Of a stretch of 64,000 nt of DNA, positions 5,697-47,698 are shown piece by piece. A model generated the notes under the pieces. The model was not told where the DNA came from, searched no databases, and saw only the letters and a list, made by a program, of their open reading frames with translations. Origin of the DNA: Dictyophora rubrovolvata (Eukaryota > Basidiomycota > Agaricomycetes > Phallales > Phallaceae); contig CP114120.1 in assembly GCA_029959195.1 (NCBI GenBank), positions 2,356,001 to 2,420,000 on the forward strand, written 5' to 3'. The number at the start of each line of letters is the position of its first letter. The first letter of the stretch is position 1. The translations under genes were made by a program, and so were the position numbers.

Positions 5697-8600
5697 TCAT
5701 TCAGGCCTATGACGTTCCGGCATTGGTCTAGATCGGTTTTGACGACTGGTCTGGATATGAGCGGGGCTAGAGGATGAGTGGATGGCGCCACTAGCATTGG
5801 CACTAGCACTAGCACCACCACCACCACCACCAGCCCTGGCAGCTCTGGATCTAACCGGACTAGTGGGTGGACTACTAGCAGGAGGTTCCGCTGGTGGTGG
5901 CGCAGGTTTATCCCACTCGTCGAGTAATTGCTGACCAACTTTGGGCTCGACCTCAGTGCCGTCACGAGAAACCTTGACTTCTCGCCCATGGTTCCATGGA
6001 TTGCGTAAATGCTTAGTACGGGTGAACGGAAGCCTTTCCGTCCGAATCCATTCGATCTTAAATTCTTGACCTTTGTCAACCGAATCAAATACTTTTTCCT
6101 CGGCCCCTGCCTGCTCCTCAAAATATTCCTTCTCCGCATTTTGTATATCTTCAGTTATACCTTCACCATACGTATCTAGTCGCATAGATTTTACGTTGTC
6201 AAGTTTGTTGATAACCCCACTTGTGGAATGAGCCAACTTTTCGAGCGGTCGAGGCGACGGCTTCTCCAGATTGATTCGTCCATCTGGCATTACACTCTTC
6301 ACAGGTGCGTGCGTCCGTAGGCTTTCAACAGAAGTTTGAGCCAGGGCATAACGAATGTCGCCCTGGTCGGGATATGTCCCTACGGCACGCGTGAGGCTGG
6401 GCCGTGAAAGGCGACGATGTGGCTGGTGAGGCTCTGCTGGAGCGGTCGCTACCCCATGCACAGGTACTTCTTGGCTGCCCCGAACGTCGATAGCTAACTG
6501 AGGATTCTGCCCAGGTGTAGGCATGGGCGACTCGAACAACGGCTGACTCTCGCTCGGGGTAAGGAATCGACCGCGCCATGCACCTTCGTCTCTTTGCTTG
6601 GGAGATGCGACAGACTGGGATGGACTAGAGTCTTCAGCAGAGCTACCTTGTTCTTCCGGCTTTCGAGGGAATATAGGACCGGCCATCCTAAATACACAGC
6701 GATCAAAATCGCTTTAAAAGCTTCCTATAATCGAGGATACTTTACCTTGCGTATCCGAAGAATTCGCCGCTCCTATTCGCTGAGAAGATGAGATATACAT
6801 CCCTGCTGGTCCTATAAGCTTGATCAAGTATACCCTCATTGTGCGGCTGAGTTGACCAAACACCCCTTTGCAGACTAAAGTCCAGATCAAACTAGAAGTT
6901 TAACCAAATGTAAGTAAACACAACATTTAAAGGCAGCGTTATGTTTTACGTACAGGACTCAGAGACTTCAAAATGAAATATCTCTTCGGAAAGTACTCCC
7001 TTAGTAGACTCGAATTGGTCGAACTGAATGACCGACCACCTTGGCTTCCGGTCCGAGGCTTGGACTTGTCGTGTTGAGACAACGTCAAGTCACGAAGCGG
7101 GGTGAGAGGGGTGTGTGGCTCGTCAGTGTGAGACACGCTGCGTATGGGTGGGGAAGGATCGGATGACGAACTTGACGCTGTAAGATAGGTTGAAGGTGAC
7201 GTCGGTGGTGCGTCGACGAAGAACCCAGGTTCGTCTTCTCTTTTCTTTCTTTCCAGCTCCAGTTGCTCCGCAACCCAACGAGTGTGTAGACCGCGGTGAC
7301 GCTGAGCTCCAACGCCGGCCTCTAAATCGTCCTCCTTTCGACGCACACGACAGACTAGTTTGGGGCACTTATGATCGTGAGGTCGTAGAGGTTTTCCGTT
7401 GAAATGAGCGATGGCACTCTCAAGGTGAGCTTGCGATTCAAAGTTTATGAAAGCACAGTTCGACCGTGAGATAAGGAACACTGAAGATACTCCGCCCCAC
7501 TCTTCATTCGTAGGAGAAGATCTAGAAGAATGTTGAACCAGACGAGAAGGTAAAACCTTGGAAGCCCCTTCCGAATGTTGTAGAAGAGACTGGTTGAAGA
7601 ATCGCCATACTTCGTCATGAGTGGCGTCAGATGGAACATTTCCAACCCACATTACCCAATCTGAGCGATTAGCAGGTGGTGCAGGATGATAAGATTTCCG
7701 TGATCCACGTAGTGGAGAAGGAGGCATATCTGCAGCAGGTTTTCTCTGAGGCGAACGATTGGATTGGGATGAAGAAGTAACATTGGACGAGAGTGGAATA
7801 AAATATGTCGGGTTATGACGCAATGCCGAGGGAGATGGAGGCGGAAATGACGAGTCTTGAGATTGGAGCTGGGAACTTGGGACCGACTCTTGCCCAGACT
7901 GCTCGGGAGCAGTACTGGTAGAAGCCGAGGAGTATGGATGCTCAAAATCGTTGCGGTTCATCTGGACTGGAGCCTGATATCCTTGAACGGCATATACGCC
8001 GGGGTATGCAGACGCATCGTATTGGGTGCCTCTCGAAGGAGGAACGTAATACCACGTTCCTCCTTTAGACGCATCCTCCGGGGATGCGGGCGAATGCTGA
8101 GAATAGAAAGATGGAGGATAAGGACTAGGAGCGTAGGAGTAAATAGTGGGAGCGGGATATGCATAATGCGTTGGAGAAGGAACATGGGGGAAATGCAAGG
8201 GTGGAGGCGGAAAAGCATGCTGTTGTCCTATAGACTGAGCCGGCGGAACAATGTTCGGAGGTGGTCGTGTAGATGGAAAGGAGGGATTCCGGGAGTCATG
8301 GTCGGATTCGGAAGGTGCTGCGAAGTTATATCCACGAGTGAGAGGGGGGAAAGGAAGGGGAATTGCGCTTGGATCATGGGCGTGTATGCCAGGAAGAGCA
8401 AACGTTTGGGAGTAGTACCCCATTGAAGGCTGCATGGGCAACGAGTGGGGAGGTTGAGACGACATGTACTGTCCCAAATACCCCGAAGCAGATGGACCAT
8501 GAGGGGGAGGAGCAGGATACGGAGCAGGAGAAGAAAACGTTTCCGGATTAGAATGGGGTGGATAAAAGGAATGTGGAGGAAACGATTGACGAGGAAAGGA

Positions 8601-9562
8601 CGGCTGCACAGCGGCGGAGGTGGCATGTCTCACTGGAGGACGCTGAGAGTGAGGACGGGTAGAATCCGATGTACGCGTGTCGTGGTTGGAAGATGGAGGC
8701 GGTTTAGAAGAACTAGATCCGCCTCTGGCTGGCGACATAGAACTTGAAGGTGAGTTTGCGTCAGGAAATTCTTCCCTGGAAGAATTGGCACCTCTCGTTC
8801 CTCTCGTTGCACCTGGACTAGAGGGGGTTTGGGAAGAGTGTGGACTATTTCTGTTGGTATCATAGAACGCCAAAGAAGAAGAATGGGCAAGGCCCTGTCG
8901 GGGATGGCCTGAAATCGAAGGACGTGTCGGTTCAACGTTATGTGCAGAAACTTTTAATGGTTTGATAAAAATAATTAATGAGTGAATACTGAAAGACCCA
9001 GAAGGACAGAAGGACAGAAGAGAGAGAACAAAAACAAAAACGAAAAGAAGAATAATAAAAAGAAAGCCAACAAGGTCTAACAGAAAACAAAACCGGGACA
9101 GAAAGTCGCAGTCTGACCTGCCAAACTCTCCGCTCCTCTTCTAAGGAAAGAAAAAAATTGAGCGTAACCGCGAGAATCGCCTGGAATCCTGACGCGGTTC
9201 AACAAATCACTGATTAAGCGCCCAAATTTTTTGCACTAGACCTTGCGGGTGTGAAAATGGTGTTACTGTCGCTGTCACACGTATCACATGTCACAATCCG
9301 GCCGAGAAAGAAAGAAAAAAAAGAACACGAAGGAATTGACGGGAAGGCCGATTATCAACTCACCACTGTTGGTTTCACTGCTACTCGGAGAATCTGTAAG
9401 CAAGGCAGATAACGTGTCTTGCGAGACTAGGATGAAGGGTGGTGTCGATGTATTGCTACACGAAGACCTGGGAGACCTCGGTTTTGATTTAATGTTATTA
9501 CCAGACGACGTTGATTTGCTACGCCGCCCATTGTTATTGTTAAGGTATATCATCGGTAGCAT
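5697..9562 (-). CDS. RRM and YTH domain protein, predicted m6A reader
   Basis: Predicted reader of N6-methyladenosine in RNA. Exons, 5' to 3' on the minus strand, are 9562-9364, 8908-6954, 6891-6746 and 6687-5697, giving 1096 residues. After a long Ser/Pro/Tyr-rich N-terminus, an RRM spans about residues 485-590 (W-V-G-N-V, then C-A-F-I-N-F). The YTH domain begins near 705 (R-Y-F-I-L-K-S-L) and continues G-V-W-S-T-Q-P-H-N-E, with Trp730 the likely first aromatic-cage residue. It then reads D-V-Y-L-I-F-S and F-F-G-Y-A-R-M, and ends with H-L-R-N-P-W-N and S-R-D-G-T-E. About 200 low-complexity residues (roughly 774-974) split the domain. Exon 1 and its 455-base intron are inferred: the donor GTGAGT and acceptor TTTCAG are in matching phase, but the start is less certain than the rest. 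Confidence 0.85.
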
Positions 9563-18617: not shown

Positions 18618-21519
18618 ATGAGCAACATCACCGACAACACTCAACAAGGCTCTGCCTCAGAGAAACCTTCCATTCGCCCTTACAAATGTCCTTATCCATT
18701 TTGCGGTCGCGCCTTTGCTAGACTAGAACACCAGGTACGCCTCCTGTCATCTACTGGCATCATCCTATTCAACCTCACCACCCTCCGGCTGGCCTTACTC
18801 AGACCCGCCACATTCGAACACACACAGGGGAACGTCCGGTAAGTCTGCATCACATCGCACCAATGACTCCTCTTAAATATGCAAATCCCTTATCTTTTGC
18901 CATCTTAGTTTGCGTGCAGCTATCCTGGCTGCGAAAAGAAGTTCTCTCGAAGTGATGAACTAACACGGCATAGCCGAATTCACGGCGCCGATAAGAATGC
19001 AAGACGGGAAAGAAAAGAACGAGAATGCCACGGTGATGATTGGGACCTGTTCCATCAAGCGGACGATCGTTTCAGGAAAAGACCCAAAAATCCCTCTGGG
19101 GTAGACGACGTACGTCGAATTCGAAACAACCTTCACAATTTCAAATCTTTTCCTTCTCATCACTGTTATTTTCTATCTTTATTTGCAAAATTTTCAGGTC
19201 GACTACATGTATAACCATTCTTTTTACTATCCCTCTACCGGCGTTGGTTCCCCTTCCTTGGATCCTATAGCCGACTTGCAAGAACTCGAGCTTGCAGAAG
19301 CCCGAAGACGCGCGGAATATGAACAACGCCATGCTACTCTTCTTCGCAATGCTAGCAGGTCTCTCAGTTTAGGCAAGGCGCGTTTGAGCAAGAGCGCAGG
19401 CACAAGCCCTGTCCTGGCGCCTATTGGTTATTCGGTGCTTCTCCCCCCAGAAGATCTGTCCCCACCTCCGTCTGCTTCTTCTTCAACTAAAACTCCTACA
19501 TTTCTGTCCGTAGCCGTGAGTAGTGGCAGCGGTCCGTGCTATTTGGAAAATACTGTTACTGCTGCTACTACTGCTACTTCTGGTGCCCCATTCTCGCCAC
19601 CCATTTGCCATCATGAAGAATGCCACAAATCATTTCGTAAAGCCCTGAAAGCGTCCCGTCGATATTCCGGTCCTGCTCTAGCCCCAGTCCCACCGCTTAC
19701 ATTGGACCATGCGTCTAATTCACCCCCCACGGGAACTAGTACTAGTCCTCCTTCTAGATACGCAGCCTCCAGTCACGCTGGTCGTCAAGTTGTCATTTCT
19801 CAACCCTCCCCTGGTACATTTTCACATCAGCATGGCTATTTCCCTTATCTCAAACCTTCTCCAGTGGCGGCGACCGACAAAGAGCGGGATGCTTACATTG
19901 GAGCAACAGAGTATCATCCCATCTCACAGGTGCCCTCTCCATCCCTGCCCCAAGGAGACAACTTTTACGTTCCTTCTCAGACATCTTTTGAGCGTGGTCT
20001 ATCCTCATCTAGTACTTATGCCCAACATCAGCACATTACCCCATCAGCTTCCCCGTTCCTACGGCCTCTGCAAACTCTCGGCTTAGCAAGCCCCTCTGAC
20101 AGCCCCATTTTAGGTGGACAAAATGCCCTGCATATGATGATATCCGAATCCCCCACAATGGAAGACGTAGATGAAGGAGAGGACGTGGATGTCATTATGG
20201 AATCACGTAACAACGGCCTCCGCCGCGTGTCCGACGTCCAGCAACAAGCAGGTGGCAAACGCAGAGATTCCAACTCTACAGTGACTCAACACGATTTTCC
20301 CAGACCCCCCGGGCCTAATCTGAAGGCGATGCACGGACTTCCTCAAGTTAAATCCGAGTCTACTCCCGCTTCTCCTACTTGGGGATATCGCCCTCGGATA
20401 AGTGGAGGGAATAGCCAGGGTTCGGATAGCAACGGAACGTCTCCTCCGCCTTTGGAGGTTGGCATGTCGGCAGCTCTGTCTTCGCCTCCGTCGCCTTCTA
20501 TGCATTCGCATCTTAATGGCTATAGGCGAGGGTTCCAGTCTAATAGCCATAGCCATAATCACTTGGCTCATTCTGTGCGCATGGCATTTACGATGACCCA
20601 GATTAAGCGCGTCGATTCATCATCCAAGGCTGGTGGTCAACTGCAACAACCGCAACCGCAGCAGCAGCAGCACGTTGCCGATGCCAATAGTAGCAGTAGT
20701 AGTAATAATAGTCCTGGTACTAGTCCTGGTCCTAGTGGCTATACGCACGTGCCTGGGCAGCTTCATCATTCTTATTCGCACCATCACTTGGCTACCTCCT
20801 CGCATCATCATCACCATCCACACCATAGACGTAACACGCCTCCTTCCTCATCTAGCAGCAGCAGCGTGCACAGCACAAGCGGAAGCACATTGCACACCCC
20901 TCCGCCACCTCCTGCAGCGTCGGTTGCAGCAGTAGTGGGAGGTGCGGGAGGACAGGGGGGACAGTACTTTTCTTTTCCTTATTCGCATCCGCCCTCGCGA
21001 GCGGGATCGCCTCCTATTATGCTTCCGCCTCTATCAAGTTCTACCCCGCATTCCGCTGCGACGACCATATCATCCAGGGCTCCTTCGCCCTCAGGGTACA
21101 GCATCATTTTGCCACCCTTGAAAGTCCAGAACCACGGCGGCGAATGCAGTGATCCCCACCATCATCTCCTTCAACAGCATCATTATCACCATCATCATCA
21201 TCATCAAAACCCACCCGTTGGTCCGATGCACGGGTCCGTCGGTACTGCACTTAGTGCTGCGTTTTCTTTAGATGACACCACCACAGCATCTAACGGTGGA
21301 ATGGACGAGGTGTCCTCGGCGATATCGATACCGCACGATCATCATCATCATCGTCATAGAGGAGGCGAAATATCAACCGGAGCTGTTAGCGGTGGTGGTG
21401 GTAATAATAATAATGATTGTGCTAGTCTCCTCTCATCGTCTTCAAAGCAAAGCGGAAATGTGGGCGAGCGCATTAAATTACCGGGGTTTTCTGAGATTAT
21501 CCGCGTTACGGAGCCGTAA
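18618..21519 (+). CDS. cre1: CreA/Mig1-type C2H2 zinc-finger transcription factor
   Basis: Predicted DNA-binding regulator of the CreA/Mig1 family, which represses genes for alternative carbon sources when glucose is present. Exons 18618-18734, 18803-18838, 18909-19109 and 19198-21519 give 891 residues. Finger 1 (about residues 22-47) has C-P-Y-P-F-C and R-L-E-H-Q-T-R-H. Finger 2 (52-76) has C-S-Y-P-G-C and R-S-D-E-L-T-R-H. The fingers and their G-E-R-P linker match CreA, so a GC-rich CreA-like site is expected. The remaining 770 residues are low complexity: Ser, Pro, Gln and several His runs. The protein ends with the motif [11 protein letters not shown]. The intron inside finger 1 falls after E-H-Q, exactly as in the neighbour at 24.5 kb. 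It is longer than typical CreA (about 400 residues), so orthology is likely but unproven. Confidence 0.78.
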
Positions 21520-24503: not shown

Positions 24504-25452
24504 ATGTCGCGACCAAACCCCAATGTCGACCTTAGCGCGAGACCGTATAAATGTCCCATTCAAGGATGTGAATGGCGGTTTTCACGATTAGAACATCAAG
24601 TGCGTCCCTGCTTCACACGCACCGTGTCTGTTTGTCTTTTTCTGACATCAGTTAGACCAGACACCTTCGAACCCACAGCGGCGAACGTCCATTCCAATGC
24701 CAATACCCTAATTGTCCCTCCAAATTCGCTCGCAACGATGAATTGAAACGTCACGTTCGGCTGGTTCACGAATGGGACAAATGCGAGGTTAGTAAATACT
24801 TACATCCATCCATCATCCCAAACTCCTTTCTTCTTCAGTAATGTTAACCACCGCCCACATTTTAGACTCCTGGTTTAGCCGATTCCGACGAAGTGGTTTA
24901 CAATGGCGCCCATGGACGCAGACCATCCGAGCAACTCCAGCCAGGTAGTCGATCTCCCTCGTAAGTTCTTATTCAACTTGTCTTTCTGGAAATTGGATTT
25001 TCCAAAAGGTTTTAAACCATTTTTATCATAGCTCCAAACTTTCATCAGGAGCTACTCGCCAGCCGGTCCCACAGCGTCCACAGACAGCCTTGAGTACCCA
25101 CCGTCCGAGTCATACCAGTGGTAGTGCTGGACCCGGATCCCCTCACTCGAGATCCACCTCCAGATCCAGCTCTAGCTCCCATGGCATTTTACCTCTCCAC
25201 CCTAACTCGATCTCCATGGCTCAACAGCCACTTGCGCCTTTACATCCTCCCTTATCCTCGAACATACATCCCATGTATCATCGCGTGTCGGGAGGACGTC
25301 CTCAGACGCCGATCACTCTTGCTCCTTTGCAACAATCAGATGGCTACTCCACCGATAGCGGCCGACGCGAAGTTAGACTTCCTGGGTTTTCTGAAATCGC
25401 AAAATCATCGGGGTCAGCCTACGATCCTTATCGTCGATATGTACGTTCCTGA
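24504..25452 (+). CDS. Short CreA-like C2H2 zinc-finger protein, paralog of the upstream gene
   Basis: Exons 24504-24599, 24656-24787, 24866-24960 and 25032-25452 give 247 residues. Finger 1 (about residues 15-40) has C-P-I-Q-G-C and R-L-E-H-Q-T-R-H. Finger 2 (45-70) has C-Q-Y-P-N-C and R-N-D-E-L-K-R-H, with four instead of three residues between its histidines. The base-contacting pattern R-x-D-E-L-x-R is kept, so I infer a similar DNA target to the 891-residue neighbour. The tail is Ser/Pro/Gln-rich and ends near [11 protein letters not shown], almost the same motif as the neighbour's end. The first intron interrupts finger 1 at the same codon boundary. It may be a shortened competitor or partner of the larger factor; that role is inference. 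Confidence 0.8.
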
Positions 25453-30318: not shown

Positions 30319-31896
30319 TTAGGCGTCTTCTTCTTCTCTTGTCTTTAATAAGTCGTCCCAGGGATCTCCAAAGCTTTTAATTAACCTGTCTTCCCAGCTT
30401 TCGGCCAACTTCAATCTTCTTGATACGATGGACGAAGGCTTCCACTTATAAACTTCTGAGTCTAGAAATGTGGCCCGGAGATTACGGCGTTGCCTTCGAG
30501 TGCTTTCCTCTTCTTCCTCTTCATCTATCAAAGGTGGTCGTTTCCTGTACAGTGCGGGGAACGACTGTGCACGAGTTCGATGATAAGATTGAGTAGGCTT
30601 CAGCTTCTCAGTTGGCGAGGGAAACGAAGGGGTTGAAGCGTCTGACATTCCGGTTGTCGTCATAGGTGTCTCGACTGTTTTGACTCCCTGTCTGCGAGGC
30701 GTTTCAAGCGGCGATTTACTAGAAATAGCAGGGATTGTTCTCCAAAAAGGGACTGATTCCCGGCTGTCGACATGTGCGATGGTCGGTCGTCTAGGAATGA
30801 CGATGGTTTCATTTGGAATATCCACTTCGCTGTCATTTCCATTTGGAGTTGAAACCTTGTCCACTATCCCTTTGGACACCTGAGCTTCTTTCCAAGTGTT
30901 TGTTACGACTGGAGTCGCCGGGTTGTTATGTGCTGATGAAGGGTACAAGGCCGTTTTAAGGCGCTTTGAAGGGCTCGAGATCTCTTCTATGATATTCATG
31001 ACAGCTGGTTTCCGCTTCATGGTTGATACTCGCCCGGAAGAAGCCGATCCCATTGACGGAGTAATTTGCGGTGTCTTCGAGGGTGTGACAGGCGATGATG
31101 ATGCAATGGGAAAAAGGGACCGGCGTGATTTTGAGGACCTGGCTGTCCGGAAAAGGGCGGTTTCTGCTTGCGCGATAAGGGTGTCTTTCATCGAAGAGCA
31201 GCATTTGGTGATGATTCGACGGGCTAATGACCATTCTCTTAATGAAGCATGAACTTGTTGACGAATGAATTCTTCTCCGGGAACATTCAGCTGCGAAATG
31301 AAAGCTGATTGGATTGAAAAGTTCAAAGAACCAAACGATATTCGTATTTACCTTAAAAACATTAATATATACCCATGAAAATATCGCCCCCTGAAACAAC
31401 GGTGTTGATGTATCTGCATTCGCCTCGCTTTGCGATACTGCTTTTTCAACTTCGACCATGGGGATATGAGCGTCTTCTCGGCCATGGTATTGTTGAACCA
31501 GCGTTAGATACGTTAAGGTATTCTTTTTAGATTTGGTTGGAGAAGAATTTGACAGCAATGCCTTTTCTACGAATGACTGTACTTTCTCGAAGGTCTTCAG
31601 GTCGACACAAGCAGCATGGCGGGCTACTTCTTTCGTTACATCTGTGTTCCCAAGCCTGAGATGATCACGAGTAAATAGGGTGGAAAGAAAGAGGAGAATT
31701 CAGATAGATGTCACCGTGAGGATGCTATGAACAAGCACGCGGCGGGCAAAACCTGTGGTCCATTTGTGAGCGCGTACGCTGAGCCAGGTCTGGTAAGGTG
31801 ACTAGCTGCGCGGAAAATTTCTTGTGTTTGTCGTCGTGTTTCGCCGCTTATTTGAAGCCGGCTGAGTATATCATCCAAAGATTTCATCCCGTGCAT
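30319..31896 (-). CDS. ORC6: Origin recognition complex subunit 6 (ORC6)
   Basis: ORC6 is the smallest subunit of the complex that marks replication origins and helps load MCM helicases. Exons 31896-31715, 31655-31352 and 31290-30319 give 485 residues. Two cyclin-box-like (TFIIB-like) units are visible. The first, about residues 17-95, has A-A-C-L-F-I-A-S-S-R followed by a K-T-F-E-K-V-Q-S-F helix. The second, about 140-185, has T-P-L-F-Q-G-A-I-F-S-W-V-Y, which lines up with the R-P-L-F-T-S-A-A-L-L segment of animal ORC6. A long Ser/Pro/Lys-rich linker follows. The C-terminus has a W-E-D-R-L-I helix like the W-K-x-K-I-L element that contacts ORC3. The start at 31896 is the first ATG in frame; a second lies nine bases on. 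Two ACGCGT boxes stand upstream. Fungal ORC6 diverges fast, so this rests on pattern rather than identity. Confidence 0.72.
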
Positions 31897-31963
31897 TGGA
31901 TCTTGTGTTGAGTGGGTTGAGCGTGGCGAACACGAGCACAAACGGGAACAATAAGGTTTACAG

Positions 31964-32018
31964 ACGCGTCGGCGCCAAAATTTGTAAACTTTTTCGTCAC
32001 AATTCCTGTCACACGCGT
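31964..32018 (-). promoter_or_regulatory. S-phase-type promoter elements of ORC6
   Basis: Two MluI cell-cycle boxes ACGCGT (31964-31969 and 32013-32018) flank an E2F-like TTTTGGCGCC read on the minus strand (31971-31980), 68 to 122 bases upstream of the ORC6 ATG. MBF binds ACGCGT in front of replication genes in yeasts. An 18-base sequence shared with the AVL9 promoter overlaps the second box (31999-32016). Confidence 0.6.
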
Positions 32019-32171
32019 AGTCACGATTATTTTTAGCACGTGATTTGAGATTAATCTTTCATTTGGAATTTGGAAGGATCCGAGATAAGTACCAAGACAG
32101 TTTTATTGTTTTTTTTTAAATAATAAGAAACTACATGAACTATTCTATTTAATAAAATGGAAAAGCTCCAC

Positions 32172-34871
32172 TCATTCGAATGCCACTCCAGGGTCTTTGT
32201 ACCTCGTGATGTTTTGTTCCCAAGCAGATCCGTATCTCTCTACCATTTTCCCCTCCCACAATCGATACTGATCTCGTCTTTCTGAAACATCTTGTCCATA
32301 TGGAACCCACACTTCGAGTTTATTTCTGATATTTGCATAATCCTGTGTTGAATACCTTGTATTCCTAGCGATCCCTCCGTCACCGAGAGGCGTGCCACTA
32401 GTAACAGCACATGAGACATCGCTTCCTGATTTTCGGTTTGATATCGAAGATGGCGTAAGATCTGCTCCGCCTCCTGCGGGGAGATGATGTTTTTCACGTG
32501 CAAGGGTCGAGACATTAGAGATGGTGGCTTTATTGCTCCCAGGTACGTTCATACCGCCCTCCTTTGTTCTTGTGGCAACAGTATCAAGACATCGTCGCGC
32601 TATAATTTCATCAAATGTACCAGAAGCTTGTGTACAGTTTTGATTTGTATTGGGAAAGGCTAAATTTTCTGATTTCGAAATTTTGCTCGGCCTTTCATCC
32701 GGCCCGCTGTCTTGGGAAATTTGGCCTTGAAATTGCGGGGTATGAGAGTTGACGCCTTTTGGGTTGTAAATGTTCCGTGTAGATACGATATATCCCCTCT
32801 GTTGATCGCGCTCCACCCCGTGGCGAACGCCTGAGCAATGGTTGTTTAATAATTGAAGCATTGTGTCAAATTCCCGTTTTGAAGCCTGAGAGTCTCTTCG
32901 CAAAGTATTTATATTGATATCCGGTACCTAGATCGAGAAAGAAAAAAATAAAGATAGACCCAGGACAAGCGTTCCAATCTGGAGCTAGCTTACTTGTAAA
33001 ATTGCACATGTCCAGAACAAGATAGTGCAGGTGACAAGCGGCGATTCCCAATTCATGCTTTCACTCAAGCATTTACTTTCTTTCAAACATTTGCATGCGG
33101 AAAGCATAGCGGCGACGGTGTTTATACACAGCCCATGTTCTAACGCCATATCGTCGAATTTTGTTTGGGCGATTAAGTTTCCAATATTTTCGTAGCCTTT
33201 CATCAGCGAATACAGTGCCGTAAGAGCTGTGCCAAATTGGTTCATTCGGAGTGCCGATATCTGTTCAATTTCTTTATCGGTTAGTTGGTTATTCCGCAGC
33301 CTGGTTGTCATTCGTTATTACTTTTTCAAATTCCATAATTAAACAACGGAGAAAGAACTAACTGCTCATTGGCCATAAACACCACTAGCGAGGGAAGAGC
33401 CTCGAAAGGAATTTGATCTGAATTGGGTAGCGGCCTTGCCATAATAGAACGGTAAAGTAATAATGCCCGTCTGTATGTTCTGTGATCGCACATTTTAGCA
33501 ATCTCGGCTTCGATATCTGAGATTGGAGAAAACGGAGACACTATGGATTTATCTCTACGGGGACGCCCTCGTTTGCCAGATTTCCTTGTAGAATGGAAAC
33601 CGGGGTCTTCATTTAATGACGACTCAGGAACTCTATCAAAGGAGTCCACTTGGGTGGATTTAAATGGGTCCGTTAAGTGTGCGTTTCTAGCATAGAACTC
33701 TTCGAGAGATTTTCGCAAGTCTCCACGGTGACCGTCCAAAGCTAAGATAAGCTTATCGAAATCTTTCTTGTTAACGTTATAGTGTGTTCGAACAGTTATA
33801 TGTTTAATTCCCGTAATCTAACACATCTCAGGGGGGAGAAAGCTCGGGAAAAAATTTTAGACTCACTTTTAGAACGGAGCAAGTCCAGTAAAAAATAGTA
33901 CATTTCCCCAAAGTAGAGTCCCAATCAACCAAATTTTTCAGTAATTCTGTTTGGCGTATGGCTTTTTGTAAATGATGCAAGCCATCGGCTATACTGCCGT
34001 CTAGTTCGAAATCATTTACAAGCTGAGAAAAGTCCGTGGGATCCTGGGGGCTGAATGTGTTATCTCGGTAGCTGGAATGGCCAATATTCGAAGAGCCCGA
34101 GGGAAGAAACCTTGTCGAAGAACGTTCGTTACCAGTCAAGATATTCGTTATATCGGCATTTGATGGCCACCGTTGATTTAGTATATGATGGATTTCTTCA
34201 AGATCCGAGCCGACGATACCGTAACGATTGGGCAGGTTATCTATTGGCTGTTTGGTGTGTAGCTACAGTGAGGAGTAATCATGGATAGCATGAGTTATAC
34301 ATCCAATCCATTTTTGATCATGAGAAATATGCCAAACCTTAAATCGACGGCATATCCATATAAAAATGGAAACTTGAACTGTTTGAGTTTGAATCCGCCA
34401 TCTCTCGGGGATGGCGCTATTGAATGCTTGTCTAACGTGAGTCATGTACTCCAGAAATACGCTGTCCAGTTCGAATTCGCGTGCCAAATTTTGGAGTAAT
34501 CCATCTGATGCAGTATTTGTACTAATATTATTCACCGAGTATAGGATCTTCCTGATCTCCGCTTTCAAAGTCTTGAAATGTTGCGGGGTTGATCGCGACC
34601 ATTGCTGTGCTCGTCTTTCAGAGACAACAGTGTTTCCGAGCCTAGTTTTAATTTAAATTATACGAGAATTATGAGTATTTGAAATACGAATAACGCACTG
34701 CTCTGATGCAATCAATGAGCAAACTGCAGGAAGTGCAGCATCCATTGTCATTTCAGCTCCGGCAGATTTATTTTGTCGAATTTGCTCAAAAAGTGCCAAG
34801 GCTTTCTCCTTTGTTTCTGCAGAGGTGCAGAGCACTAAGATTTCAGAAGGTACACCAATATTTGTGTCCAT
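32172..34871 (-). CDS. Large ORC6-like protein with duplicated cyclin boxes and an AT-hook
   Basis: Exons 34871-34699, 34641-34338, 34262-33867, 33817-33363, 33300-32994 and 32927-32172 give 796 residues. Two copies of the first cyclin-box helix are seen: A-A-L-P-A-V-C-S-L-I-A-S-E-Q (about 45-58) and E-A-L-P-S-L-V-V-F-M-A-N-E-Q (about 430-443). Three copies of the second-box helix end at exon borders: S-I-F-I-W-I-C-R-R-F-K (159), C-T-I-F-Y-W-T-C-S-V-L-K (291) and C-T-I-L-F-W-T-C-A-I-L-Q (545). The junction C-A|Q-L after the first helix and the boundary after each W-x-C helix match the ORC6 exon borders next door. Residues 372-381 form an AT-hook around G-R-P. The C-terminus Y-R-L-W-E-G-K-M-V (about 766-774) resembles the ORC6 ORC3-contact helix. 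It lies head-to-tail 276 bases upstream of ORC6. Function unknown; I infer ORC6 duplication and repeat expansion. Confidence 0.75.
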
Positions 34872-35081: not shown

Positions 35082-36243
35082 TTACTGCTGAGCTTTTCCA
35101 GAAGACAGTTCTACAATTTGAGAAAACCCGGGGTATTCCGGGAGATTTAATTGATACTTCCTCTCCATTTCCCTGGGAGCATTTGTCAATGAAAACTCTG
35201 GCATAAAATTGGTATGTTTCAAACTTGCTTAGTAACGAAGCGACCTCCGAGGAAATGTCTCCCTACGAAGTTCCTCACTCCTTCTTTTGGAGCAGTAAGG
35301 CTTATTAGAACATCTGGCTGGAGACCCACGTGGTCCTTGTCACCTTCTTCAACATTCCAGCCTGAAAAAAAAATTATTAGGTCAAATCATCGCTACTATT
35401 ATTCATTCAAATATGTACCAGATGGAATGTCCACAGAGACGATTGGAAGTTGTGATTTGGAGATCAGTTCAAGAGCCGTACCAAAAGGGGGCCGTACAGG
35501 GGGCTTGAAAGAAAAGCCAAATATAGCATCTAATATCACATCCGATTCATTAAGCTTGTTTTGTAGATCCTCTTCAGAATTAATTGTAGGAATGTCCATG
35601 TTTAGACATTGGGTATGAAGTCTCTTTTAAACCGCCCTCGTGGTGTGTGCTCAAGGAGTTAAATAACGTTTAGATTATAAACAATCACCTTGTAAATTTC
35701 TTTTGAGCCAGGCTTCGATAAAATAAGCCGAAGATGTCTAATTCAATCAGGAGACGGGCTTGCCTTGGGTAAATAGACAGCAGGTTTATACCCAAACATG
35801 GCTGATGATTGGGCACGATTAAACCTTCGTCATATTACGAATCATTGAGAAGCCGCTTTGGCGTTTTACCTAAATGTCTAGCAGCAACAAGACCGTCTCC
35901 ACCCTGATTTTATTGGTTGTAAAGCTATGAATAAAAGGTGTGCACGTATGTACCTGGTTGCCAGGTCCACAACCGACCAGCACACGTGAGTACTTTTCAC
36001 GAGGATAGACTGTAGCTAATGTTTGGGCGCAAGCAAGACCTGCGAGTTCCATTAACTGCACAGTGTAAGTGATATTCTTTTTGAGAAAGACTGAAGTTTG
36101 TTACTTGGTCGATGCTGAATGCTCCCGCGGCACCCATTAGCTCTTCGTCGATCTTTGATACTCTAAAAATTTCTGAAATACTCCTTGGAGAAATTTGACC
36201 ATACTTGCTGAGCCAACTTCGAAGTCAGATATCTCAAAGTCAT
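35082..36243 (-). CDS. NAXE: NAD(P)H-hydrate epimerase
   Basis: Repairs damaged cofactor by converting R-NAD(P)HX to the S form, which the partner dehydratase restores; usually mitochondrial and cytosolic. Nine exons (36243-36205, 36152-36105, 36055-35954, 35903-35870, 35801-35764, 35712-35689, 35623-35419, 35361-35225, 35162-35082) give 235 residues. The opening A-Q-Q-I-D-E-E-L-M, then F-S-I-D-Q-L-M-E-L-A-G, the loop [12 protein letters not shown] (about 56-67), D-A-I-F-G-F-S-F and V-D-I-P-S-G-W are all family signatures. The end [10 protein letters not shown] matches the YjeF N-terminal domain end. Intron 5 appears to be a GC-AG intron (donor AAG|GCAAGC). For intron 8 I used the acceptor GGAG because the alternative gives an intron of only 29 bases. 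No clear mitochondrial leader is seen. Confidence 0.88.
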
Positions 36244-45611: not shown

Positions 45612-46190
45612 AGTATTGCGTGTTCAACTCAGGATGTTTGAGACAGCTGAAGTAAGAAAACGAGATTTAAAAACCTGACCGGACGACCAGTAATTCCAGA
45701 GTCAAGTCTTGTGCTCATTTATGACATCGGTCGAGTGAATTGTAGGGGGCCGCGGGAGGGAAAAATAACTTTCCCGATGGGGGCCCTAAGGGCAGAAGAC
45801 CTAGATTCCTTTCGCTTGGAGAAAGTCTCCTTTAAAAGACATAAGGTGTGGATACTTGTGCCCGCCATAATAGACGATGTCGTTTTTCTACTTTAATAAA
45901 GTGCACACGACGACACTTGCAGTGTGCGATCAAGTACGAAAACGACCGCACTGCATTAGACCCCAAGTTACCTCAAAGTTTTGCATAAAACACGTAGAAA
46001 CCCATTCAAAGTAGCAGAGTCTAAGAATAACATGATTTCGCAAATTTGCAAGCAGGCGACTTCGTAGCGCTAAACACGAAGGCAACGCGTGCCGCCACCA
46101 CCACGCAACCCATCCATAGGCGCCAATGTGGCCAGCTGACATAAACTTTCCTTCTTCCCCCTCATCATCTCTCCAACTTTCCCCTCCACT
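45612..46190. other. Divergent promoter region, DUF2945 and TAM41
   Basis: No gene. One ACGCGT box occurs at 46085-46090, about 100 bases before the TAM41 ATG. Confidence 0.45.
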
Positions 46191-47698
46191 ATGTCCATGT
46201 CCACTGCGTCTGTCACTCGCCGTTCGTTAAAGTTATGCACCACCAGACATATCCGATTACTCAGCACGGAACCCGTTCAACCATCTTCTAGTCAGTCTCA
46301 TTTGCCGCCTCCCCCTCCACCGGCAAGCTCAGCAACGGCCACCAGCTCGAATGGCAGCAACAGTGGGACAACAACGGCAGCAAATACTGCTACCGCACGT
46401 GCTACACGATCTCGTCTTGGGCCAGTTCCCCGTCCGACCAACTCCCATTTTTCAAGAGCCCAAGAGAATCCCCGAATAGCCTCAAACCGGCGAACTCTTC
46501 TTCCCCTGTTACCTCATAATTTCGGCGCGAACCAACTTCTCGCCGTGACAACTACGACTCGCGATCTATTAGAATCTATAGTTGCTCAGTTTGAGGCCCC
46601 AATTCGGTACGCATTTGCTTATGGCTCTGGCGTGTTTGAGCAGGATGGATACACGACGGACGATCCGAACCGGCCTATGCTTGATTTTATGTTTGCAGTG
46701 AGCCATCCCAGCCATTGGCATTCTATCAATATGGCAAGGAATCCTAGTCACTACCCAATGCATGCGAGAATGCTGGGAAGTGATTTTGTGGCAAAGACGC
46801 AGGAGGTTGGTCCCGGTGTCTGGTTCAATCCATACGTTACTGTCAAGGATGTCGTAAGTTAATTGATGATCGGCCGGACAACCATAATTATTCTAGTACT
46901 GACGAGTCCTGATAGACCATCAAATACGGTGTAACATCCATTGACAGCTTATGCAGCGATCTTCTCTCCTGGCACACGCTATACCTCGCCGGACGAATGC
47001 ACAAGCCACTCCGGATCATCAAAGATGACGCCCGTGTTCGCCTAACCCAACAAGTAAATCTCACCTCCGCATTAAGGACAGCCCTTTTAACTCTCCCGGA
47101 ACGTTTTTCTGAACGCGAACTCTTTGAACGCATTTCGGGTTTAAGCTACGCCGGTGATCCCCGTATGTGGCTTCCGGCCGAGAACCGGAACAAGGTCGCG
47201 AATATTGTCTCTAAACAAGCGGACCAGTTTAGAGAATTGTATCGGAAACTTGCTTTAGGACTTCCTGGTGTCCGCTGGGATGCTATTGGAGGGTCAGTAG
47301 AGCAGGATTTGGATCCGAAGACGAGGGTATTGCATTTGAGGAAGTTACCATCTGAACTGCTCAGTCGAGTTGATAGGTGGTACATGCTTCGGATGGATAG
47401 TCCCTCCAAGGAAGCTGATGAAAATGCTTATTGGAAAGCGGTCGCTGGAGATCCGAGGTTAGGACAAGTCATAGCAGATGGTAAGCCCAACCCGGATCCC
47501 ATTTCTTGCTCAGAATTGAAGTAAACTCAAAACTCTTATCTAATTCTTGCAGAAACAAAAAACATTGTTCGTTACCCAGCTACGCTTCAGTCCATGAAGG
47601 GTCTTGTATCCGCTGGATTCAGTAAAAGCTTTCGGTATGGGGCGGGAAAGATTGGGAAGTGGTGCAAGGGTGACGGTGCCACTCACAAGTCAACATAA
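46191..47698 (+). CDS. TAM41: Mitochondrial CDP-diacylglycerol synthase TAM41
   Basis: Makes CDP-diacylglycerol from phosphatidate and CTP on the matrix side of the inner membrane, the first step to cardiolipin. Exons 46191-46853, 46916-47480 and 47553-47698 give 457 residues. The basic, Ser/Arg-rich N-terminus (R-R-S-L-K-L, then R-H-I-R-L-L) looks like a mitochondrial leader, followed by a Ser/Pro/Thr-rich low-complexity stretch. The nucleotidyltransferase motif F-A-Y-G-S-G-V-F lies at about 142-149, and M-L-D-F-M-F supplies Asp165. Later W-F-N-P-Y-V, K-Y-G-V and the end S-M-K-G-L-V-S-A-G-F match the family. The length is somewhat above the usual 350-400 because of the low-complexity insert. 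Confidence 0.92.

Follow-up and report, generated by a model that had tools for sequence, protein, structure and literature searches.

In the sources cited here, ORC6 is described as the least conserved subunit of the origin recognition complex (ORC) (PMC7641730), and the human protein as DNA-binding. Its two cyclin boxes, here called N and M, are used differently by yeast and human ORC6 in the loading of minichromosome maintenance (MCM) proteins. In the MCM-ORC complex of humans, ORC6 places its N box between ORC4 and MCM2/MCM6 and joins ORC5 to MCM4/MCM6 with its second box, whereas the second box of yeast ORC6 touches Orc2/Orc3 (PMC11634765). The N-terminal cyclin box of the yeast protein can keep ORC-Cdc6 in an Mcm7-blocking state, linked to phosphorylation by cyclin-dependent kinase (CDK) (PMC8881611). 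In animals, ORC6 attaches to ORC3 by a C-terminal helix that has an invariant Trp as well as a Tyr, the latter being changed to Ser in Meier-Gorlin syndrome (PMC3791464). For the Cryptococcus genome, probable orthologs are reported for all pre-replicative proteins but Orc6, and the passage concerned leaves open real loss versus poor conservation (PMC3990503). Here we describe a 64,000-nucleotide stretch of the Dictyophora rubrovolvata genome (GCA_029959195.1, contig CP114120.1, positions 2,356,001 to 2,420,000 of the forward strand; hereafter the window), in which an ORC6-like gene stands beside a much larger paralog, the giant, that carries five boxes in the order N-M-M-N-M.

Both genes were rebuilt with GT-AG introns and lie, with all their parts, on the minus strand. 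The ORC6-like gene (30319-31896) encodes 485 residues in three exons (31715-31896, 31352-31655 and 30319-31290; introns of phase 2 and 0). The giant (32172-34871) encodes 796 residues in six exons (34699-34871, 34338-34641, 33867-34262, 33363-33817, 32994-33300 and 32172-32927; introns of phase 2, 0, 0, 2 and 0). All seven introns are 49-75 bases long. The original prediction, a reading of the window from its letters, had given the same coordinates and protein lengths and the same head-to-tail arrangement; its spacing of 276 bases is corrected to 275, measured from the stop codon of the giant to the start codon of the ORC6-like gene. The whole model of the giant is backed by an annotated, collinear protein of 818 residues from Clathrus columnatus (Clacol_007712; P0001), and the splice joints are gap-free in the alignment of the two.

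The smaller protein is composed of an N-type box (residues 1-96; 31550-31896, containing intron 1), an M-type box (residues 107-199; 31180-31519, containing intron 2) and a C-terminal segment (residues 431-485; 30322-30486) with the Trp motif WEDRLI (residues 461-466; 30379-30396). In the giant the layout is N1-M1-M2-N2-M3 followed by a C-terminal segment of the same kind. It comprises N1 (residues 1-95; 34530-34871; 74% identical to Clathrus), M1 (105-193; 34161-34502), M2 (236-324; 33719-34034; 81% identical to Clathrus), N2 (391-479; 33192-33520), M3 (481-577; 32832-33188) and the C-terminal segment (736-787; 32202-32357). Segment pairs were scored against 200 shuffles per pair. Within the giant, the z-scores are 24.0 for M2/M3, 11.8 for N1/N2 and 5.6 for M1/M2. 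Between the giant and the smaller protein they are 10.8 for ORC6-N/N1, 7.0 for ORC6-N/N2, 6.1 for the two C-terminal segments, 4.1 for ORC6-M/M3 and 2.9 for ORC6-M/M2; the pairs ORC6-M/M1 and M1/M3 do not rise above 2.5. These scores confirm the two first-box and three second-box copies that had been proposed. Two-sequence BLASTP of the smaller protein against the giant gives E 5.6e-5 for N/N1 and E 0.025-0.03 for N-M/N2-M3 and for the C-terminal segments. The paralogous boxes of the window proteins, including those of the giant compared with those of its neighbour, share 13-27% identity. A stretch of 30 residues following M2 (residues 325-354; 33629-33718) is conserved like the boxes (83% identical to Clathrus), and BLASTP against the ORC6-like protein gives chance-level pieces only; it is perhaps an extra binding element.

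The introns follow the boxes. In the smaller gene, the N box is cut at R|LGN by an intron of phase 2, the M box at FK|L by one of phase 0. Each of the five introns of the giant matches one of these two in site and phase, in line with the predicted sharing of exon borders: phase-2 introns stand just ahead of Leu in the N boxes (Q|LGN and Q|LRN), and phase-0 introns follow Lys or Gln in the M boxes (FK|L in M1, LK|I and LQ|V). The exons running from an N box into an M box measure 304 nucleotides (ORC6-like exon 2), 304 nucleotides (giant exon 2) and 307 nucleotides (giant exon 5). We infer that the large gene arose when an N-M unit that already had its introns was duplicated. No other two boxes score as highly as M2 and M3, yet within the window protein their identity is only 25%, and even their duplication therefore looks old. 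Exons 3, 4 and 5 of the giant each start in one box and end in the next, which rules out a distribution of the boxes over separate ordinary transcripts. Agreement in sequence, in the positions and phases of introns, in the order of boxes and in the C-terminal ending identifies the giant as a paralog of the neighbouring ORC6-like gene.

Relatives were sought in a set of 5.77 billion proteins, using both whole proteins and region 255-356 of the giant. The whole-protein search with the giant scored the 7999 candidates with the most words in common, and that with the region 55 candidates. The sole relative of the giant found is the Clathrus protein, annotated 'hypothetical protein', from a species described as a stinkhorn of the order Phallales with a genome of 36.5 Mb (PMC8830316). 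The two proteins are collinear from end to end, with an identity of 61% in the protein search and 63% in the alignment; by part, identity is 62-84% in the boxes, 71% in the C-terminal segment, and 33, 33 and 46% in three linkers. Across the two species, each box resembles its counterpart far more (62-84%) than paralogous boxes resemble one another (13-27%), so the five-box layout predates the split of Dictyophora rubrovolvata and Clathrus. The ORC6-like query returned only two relatives. P0002 is 81% identical over 100% of the query by BLAST and 85% identical in the alignment. P0003 is partial, covering the C-terminal half, and has five full CDK sites; it ends in SWEKALIKSFGDPWDEL, so that the tail of the small protein is well preserved in this third relative. 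The query did not recover even a Clathrus ORC6, and missing relatives elsewhere therefore prove little. The giant appears to change faster than the smaller protein, in a comparison of rates that is only approximate. A search of the genome (28.24 Mb, 11 contigs; copy counts are lower bounds) found no further copy of either protein.

We further analyzed the relationship to ORC6 with a profile pooled from six N-M units of both proteins. Against 177,635 PDB sequences, its top three matches are human ORC6 (E 0.023, 0.034 and 0.036), the only protein below E 1; the next match has E 1.1. Aligned to human and Drosophila ORC6 with hhalign, the pooled profile scores 35.6 over both boxes, a value that none of 200 column shuffles reaches (maximum 20.6) and that falls to 11.0 with the reversed control. 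The score against human TFIIB is 19.6, and 100 shuffled TFIIB sequences peak at 18.6. Two results limit the ORC6 assignment: neither protein passes a Pfam cut-off, and the smaller protein alone does not rise above shuffles when compared with animal ORC6 (by hhalign, 15 of 100 shuffles score as high). Single N-M units are likewise marginal or not significant by hhalign. The Pfam second-box model ORC6_2nd (PF21913) scores 17.5 bits on M3 of the giant (E 0.0059; cut-off 27 bits), matches two of the six N-M units below the cut-off (best E 0.0083) and has no match on the Clathrus relative. The first-box model PF05460 finds no match on the giant up to E 10, which divergence may explain, and the smaller protein has no match to any Pfam model. 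Once the evidence is pooled, homology to ORC6 is well supported, and on these sequence comparisons the giant is very probably an ORC6 homolog. The original prediction of an ORC6-type protein is upheld by the pooled profile and falls short at the curated Pfam cut-offs; profile and fold searches did not place the giant in an unrelated family. Pfam hits to 'Spider insecticidal peptide' (PF08091; E 0.7 and 1.6) and, on N-M units, to WHD (E 0.12) and Spherulin4 (E 0.19) were judged chance, as were three phmmer matches of the ORC6-like protein in the PDB (best E 0.19), and its weak C7 match (query 306-439; E 0.35) was dropped for the same reason.

The C-terminal segment of the giant retains the helix motif of animal ORC6. 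Residues 232-240 of human ORC6 read YEEWKRKIL, residues 766-774 of the giant YRLWEGKMV (Y766-x-x-W769-x-x-K-M-V; 32241-32267), and the Clathrus protein has YHLWEEKMV. The chance of such a motif in the last 60 residues of the giant is 0.001 upon shuffling. In the smaller protein, WEDRLI (W461) has the Trp, basic and hydrophobic positions and lacks the Tyr (chance 0.023). A Trp-containing, ORC3-contact-like ending had been proposed for both proteins; the Trp is indeed present in both, and the Tyr of YxxW in the giant only. The giant thereby keeps both the Tyr and the Trp on which the binding of animal ORC6 to ORC3 depends, and is itself predicted to bind ORC3.

The two genes differ in their regulatory signals. 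MCB (MluI cell-cycle box) and E2F-type sites mark G1/S genes in fungi. The 275-base space ahead of the ORC6-like gene contains two MCB-type ACGCGT elements, at 31964 and 32013 (31964-32018), where 0.06 are expected (Poisson P of two or more, 0.0017), and at 31972-31979 the only GCGCCAAA of the window. Of the five patterns sought, none occurs in the 210 bases that precede the giant. The smaller protein carries four full CDK consensus sites (shuffle P 0.018), of which S99 falls between the boxes and T231, S268 and T359 lie C-terminal to both; P0002 also has four (shuffle P 0.0096). No full CDK site is present in the giant or its Clathrus relative, where composition predicts only 0.6-0.8, so that this absence alone says little. 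The ORC2, ORC4, ORC5 and ORC winged-helix families, the last of which we take to be ORC3, were each found at one genome locus (again a lower bound; ORC5 as two neighbouring pieces); among the subunits seen, therefore, only ORC6 is doubled, ORC1 not having been searched. The ORC3_N and ORC3_ins models had no match in the genome, which does not imply absence.

Given these features, our favoured reading is that the giant is an ORC-bound alternative or additional subunit of the ORC6 type, to which the sequence evidence lends roughly an even chance. It would be an old tandem ORC6 paralog in which the cyclin-box pair was multiplied within one polypeptide, and it would dock on ORC as ORC6 does, with its C-terminal YxxWxxK helix on ORC3. 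Association with ORC3, membership of the complex and any role in licensing are what we infer from this likeness. On ORC3, the giant could take the place of ORC6 or vie with it, and would add another set of box contacts, its two N-M units and extra M box giving several contact surfaces simultaneously. The S-phase programme, marked by MCB elements and CDK sites, would stay with the ordinary neighbour. Since the giant has no full CDK site and no MCB element in the 210 bases before it, it may escape control by CDK and work, perhaps, in a specialised type of cell. A bolder version, which we regard as highly improbable, is a bivalent ORC6 in which one chain, with two N-M units and a single ORC3 helix, holds a pair of MCM hexamers at once, or both of them together with one ORC, free of CDK control. 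If true, it would represent one-chain origin licensing unlike the yeast or human ORC6 routes, throughout a lineage of mushrooms.

The same docking motif would also suit a decoy or brake that occupies the ORC3 site and does not support MCM loading, thus limiting licensing in, for example, arrested, dikaryotic or spore-forming cells. The lack of a full CDK site and of an MCB element in the 210 upstream bases agrees with such a role, as does the Mcm7-blocking state that the yeast N box can impose according to the source cited (PMC8881611). The boxes are, however, conserved at 62-84% rather than decayed, and a brake is considered unlikely. At the level of sequence, a brake and a working subunit that helps loading would look alike.

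It is comparably unlikely that the giant has left the origin complex and now serves as a cyclin-box scaffold elsewhere, such as a TFIIB-like transcription factor or a protein of cytokinesis or DNA repair. This possibility draws on the 13-27% identity of its boxes to those of the neighbour and on predicted structures, a comparison that rests throughout on a weak model; before modelling, the exon 3 piece of the giant was shortened by 12 codons, its last 12 residues having fallen on M3 in the MAFFT alignment. The fold matches of the M boxes, M2 among them, list TFIIB, BRF, ORC6 and cyclins, with TFIIB at the head and BRF2, ORC6 and cyclin A tied on M3. TFIIB matches the M1-M2 stretch of the Clathrus model, and cyclins A, B1, C, T and T2 and Rb are also included. 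N1 and N2 are barely spanned by these matches and are linked to the N box of the ORC6-like protein by sequence homology alone. The M boxes of the giant, as modelled, have a cyclin-box (TFIIB-like) fold. Against a scaffold in another process, the pooled profile favours ORC6 over TFIIB, no TFIIB or zinc-ribbon model matches either protein at E up to 10, and the ORC3-type motif is retained.

A further alternative, that the names are swapped or both wrong, takes the pair as cyclin-box paralogs of a basidiomycete protein other than ORC6, with the true ORC6 elsewhere. The smaller protein has no Pfam match, and Cryptococcus, according to the passage cited (PMC3990503), yielded no ORC6 that could serve as a basidiomycete yardstick. 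The pooled profile and the helix motif nevertheless indicate ORC6, the MCB elements and CDK sites suit a licensing gene, and the genome yielded no other ORC6 candidate; the tests are weak here, as exon-wise searches of the whole genome with the Pfam ORC6 models gave no match and their controls were silent too, so that absence is not implied. We consider misnaming very improbable. An artefactual model that fuses two or three distinct genes, or fragments of pseudogenes, is the most remote of these alternatives, for although the model rests on sequence and Clathrus provides the only relative found, exons 3, 4 and 5 cross from box to box and the same protein occurs in Clathrus, gap-free at the splice joints.

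Upstream of the giant and on its strand lies a piece of a YjeF_N gene of the NAD(P)H-hydrate epimerase type (35399-35626, minus; E 2.4e-14), a possible synteny anchor. A weak WD40-repeat piece, below the cut-off, is found downstream of the pair on the opposite strand. Elsewhere in the window, large open frames at 5697-9140 (minus) contain a YTH piece (PF04146) and a YTH1-type RRM (PF25701), and are probably one gene for an RRM-plus-YTH protein resembling readers of N6-methyladenosine (m6A). The first part of a Tam41-type mitochondrial phosphatidate cytidylyltransferase is located at 46140-46862 (plus; PF09139, E 9.6e-35). An open frame of 804 residues at 19105-21519 (plus), with many runs of Ser, His and Pro, has no Pfam match at E 0.01; its end (KLPGFSEI) resembles the RLPGFSEI read at about 25350-25420.

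No ORC6 paralog or five-box protein is described among the literature matches listed, which were open-licence PMC papers, in agreement with the view that an ORC6 relative with expanded cyclin boxes is undescribed. A natural paralog that combines two complete pairs of boxes with a further M box and the ORC3 motif would constitute a test of the role of each box and of the capacity of ORC to accept alternative ORC6 subunits. The pair would also provide a candidate ORC6 for basidiomycetes, where the Cryptococcus study, in the part cited, found none (PMC3990503). With cyclins and the retinoblastoma pocket the giant has the helical box fold in common, as far as the weak model tells, and no cyclin or Rb model matches in the Pfam search. 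The core of TFIIB and BRF1/BRF2 has two cyclin boxes; the giant differs in its five boxes, in having no match to zinc-ribbon or TFIIB models, and in a TFIIB profile score barely different from the shuffled maximum (19.6 versus 18.6). ORC6 of human, Drosophila and yeast (PF05460, PF21913) shares the succession of N box, M box, linker and C-terminal Trp segment, and with the giant the Y-x-x-W-x-x-K-hydrophobic pair and a pooled box profile that is best in the PDB on human ORC6. ORC6 has two boxes where the giant has five (N-M-M-N-M) in 796 residues; the giant also lacks a full CDK site and lies under every curated cut-off, and, unlike in those systems, this second gene adjoins a two-box ORC6-like gene. 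By box number and Pfam cut-offs the giant is related to ORC6 but not a curated member of the family. Its closest counterpart is Clacol_007712 of Clathrus columnatus (818 residues), which has all five boxes and the C-terminal segment in common, is 61-63% identical and differs in the linkers.

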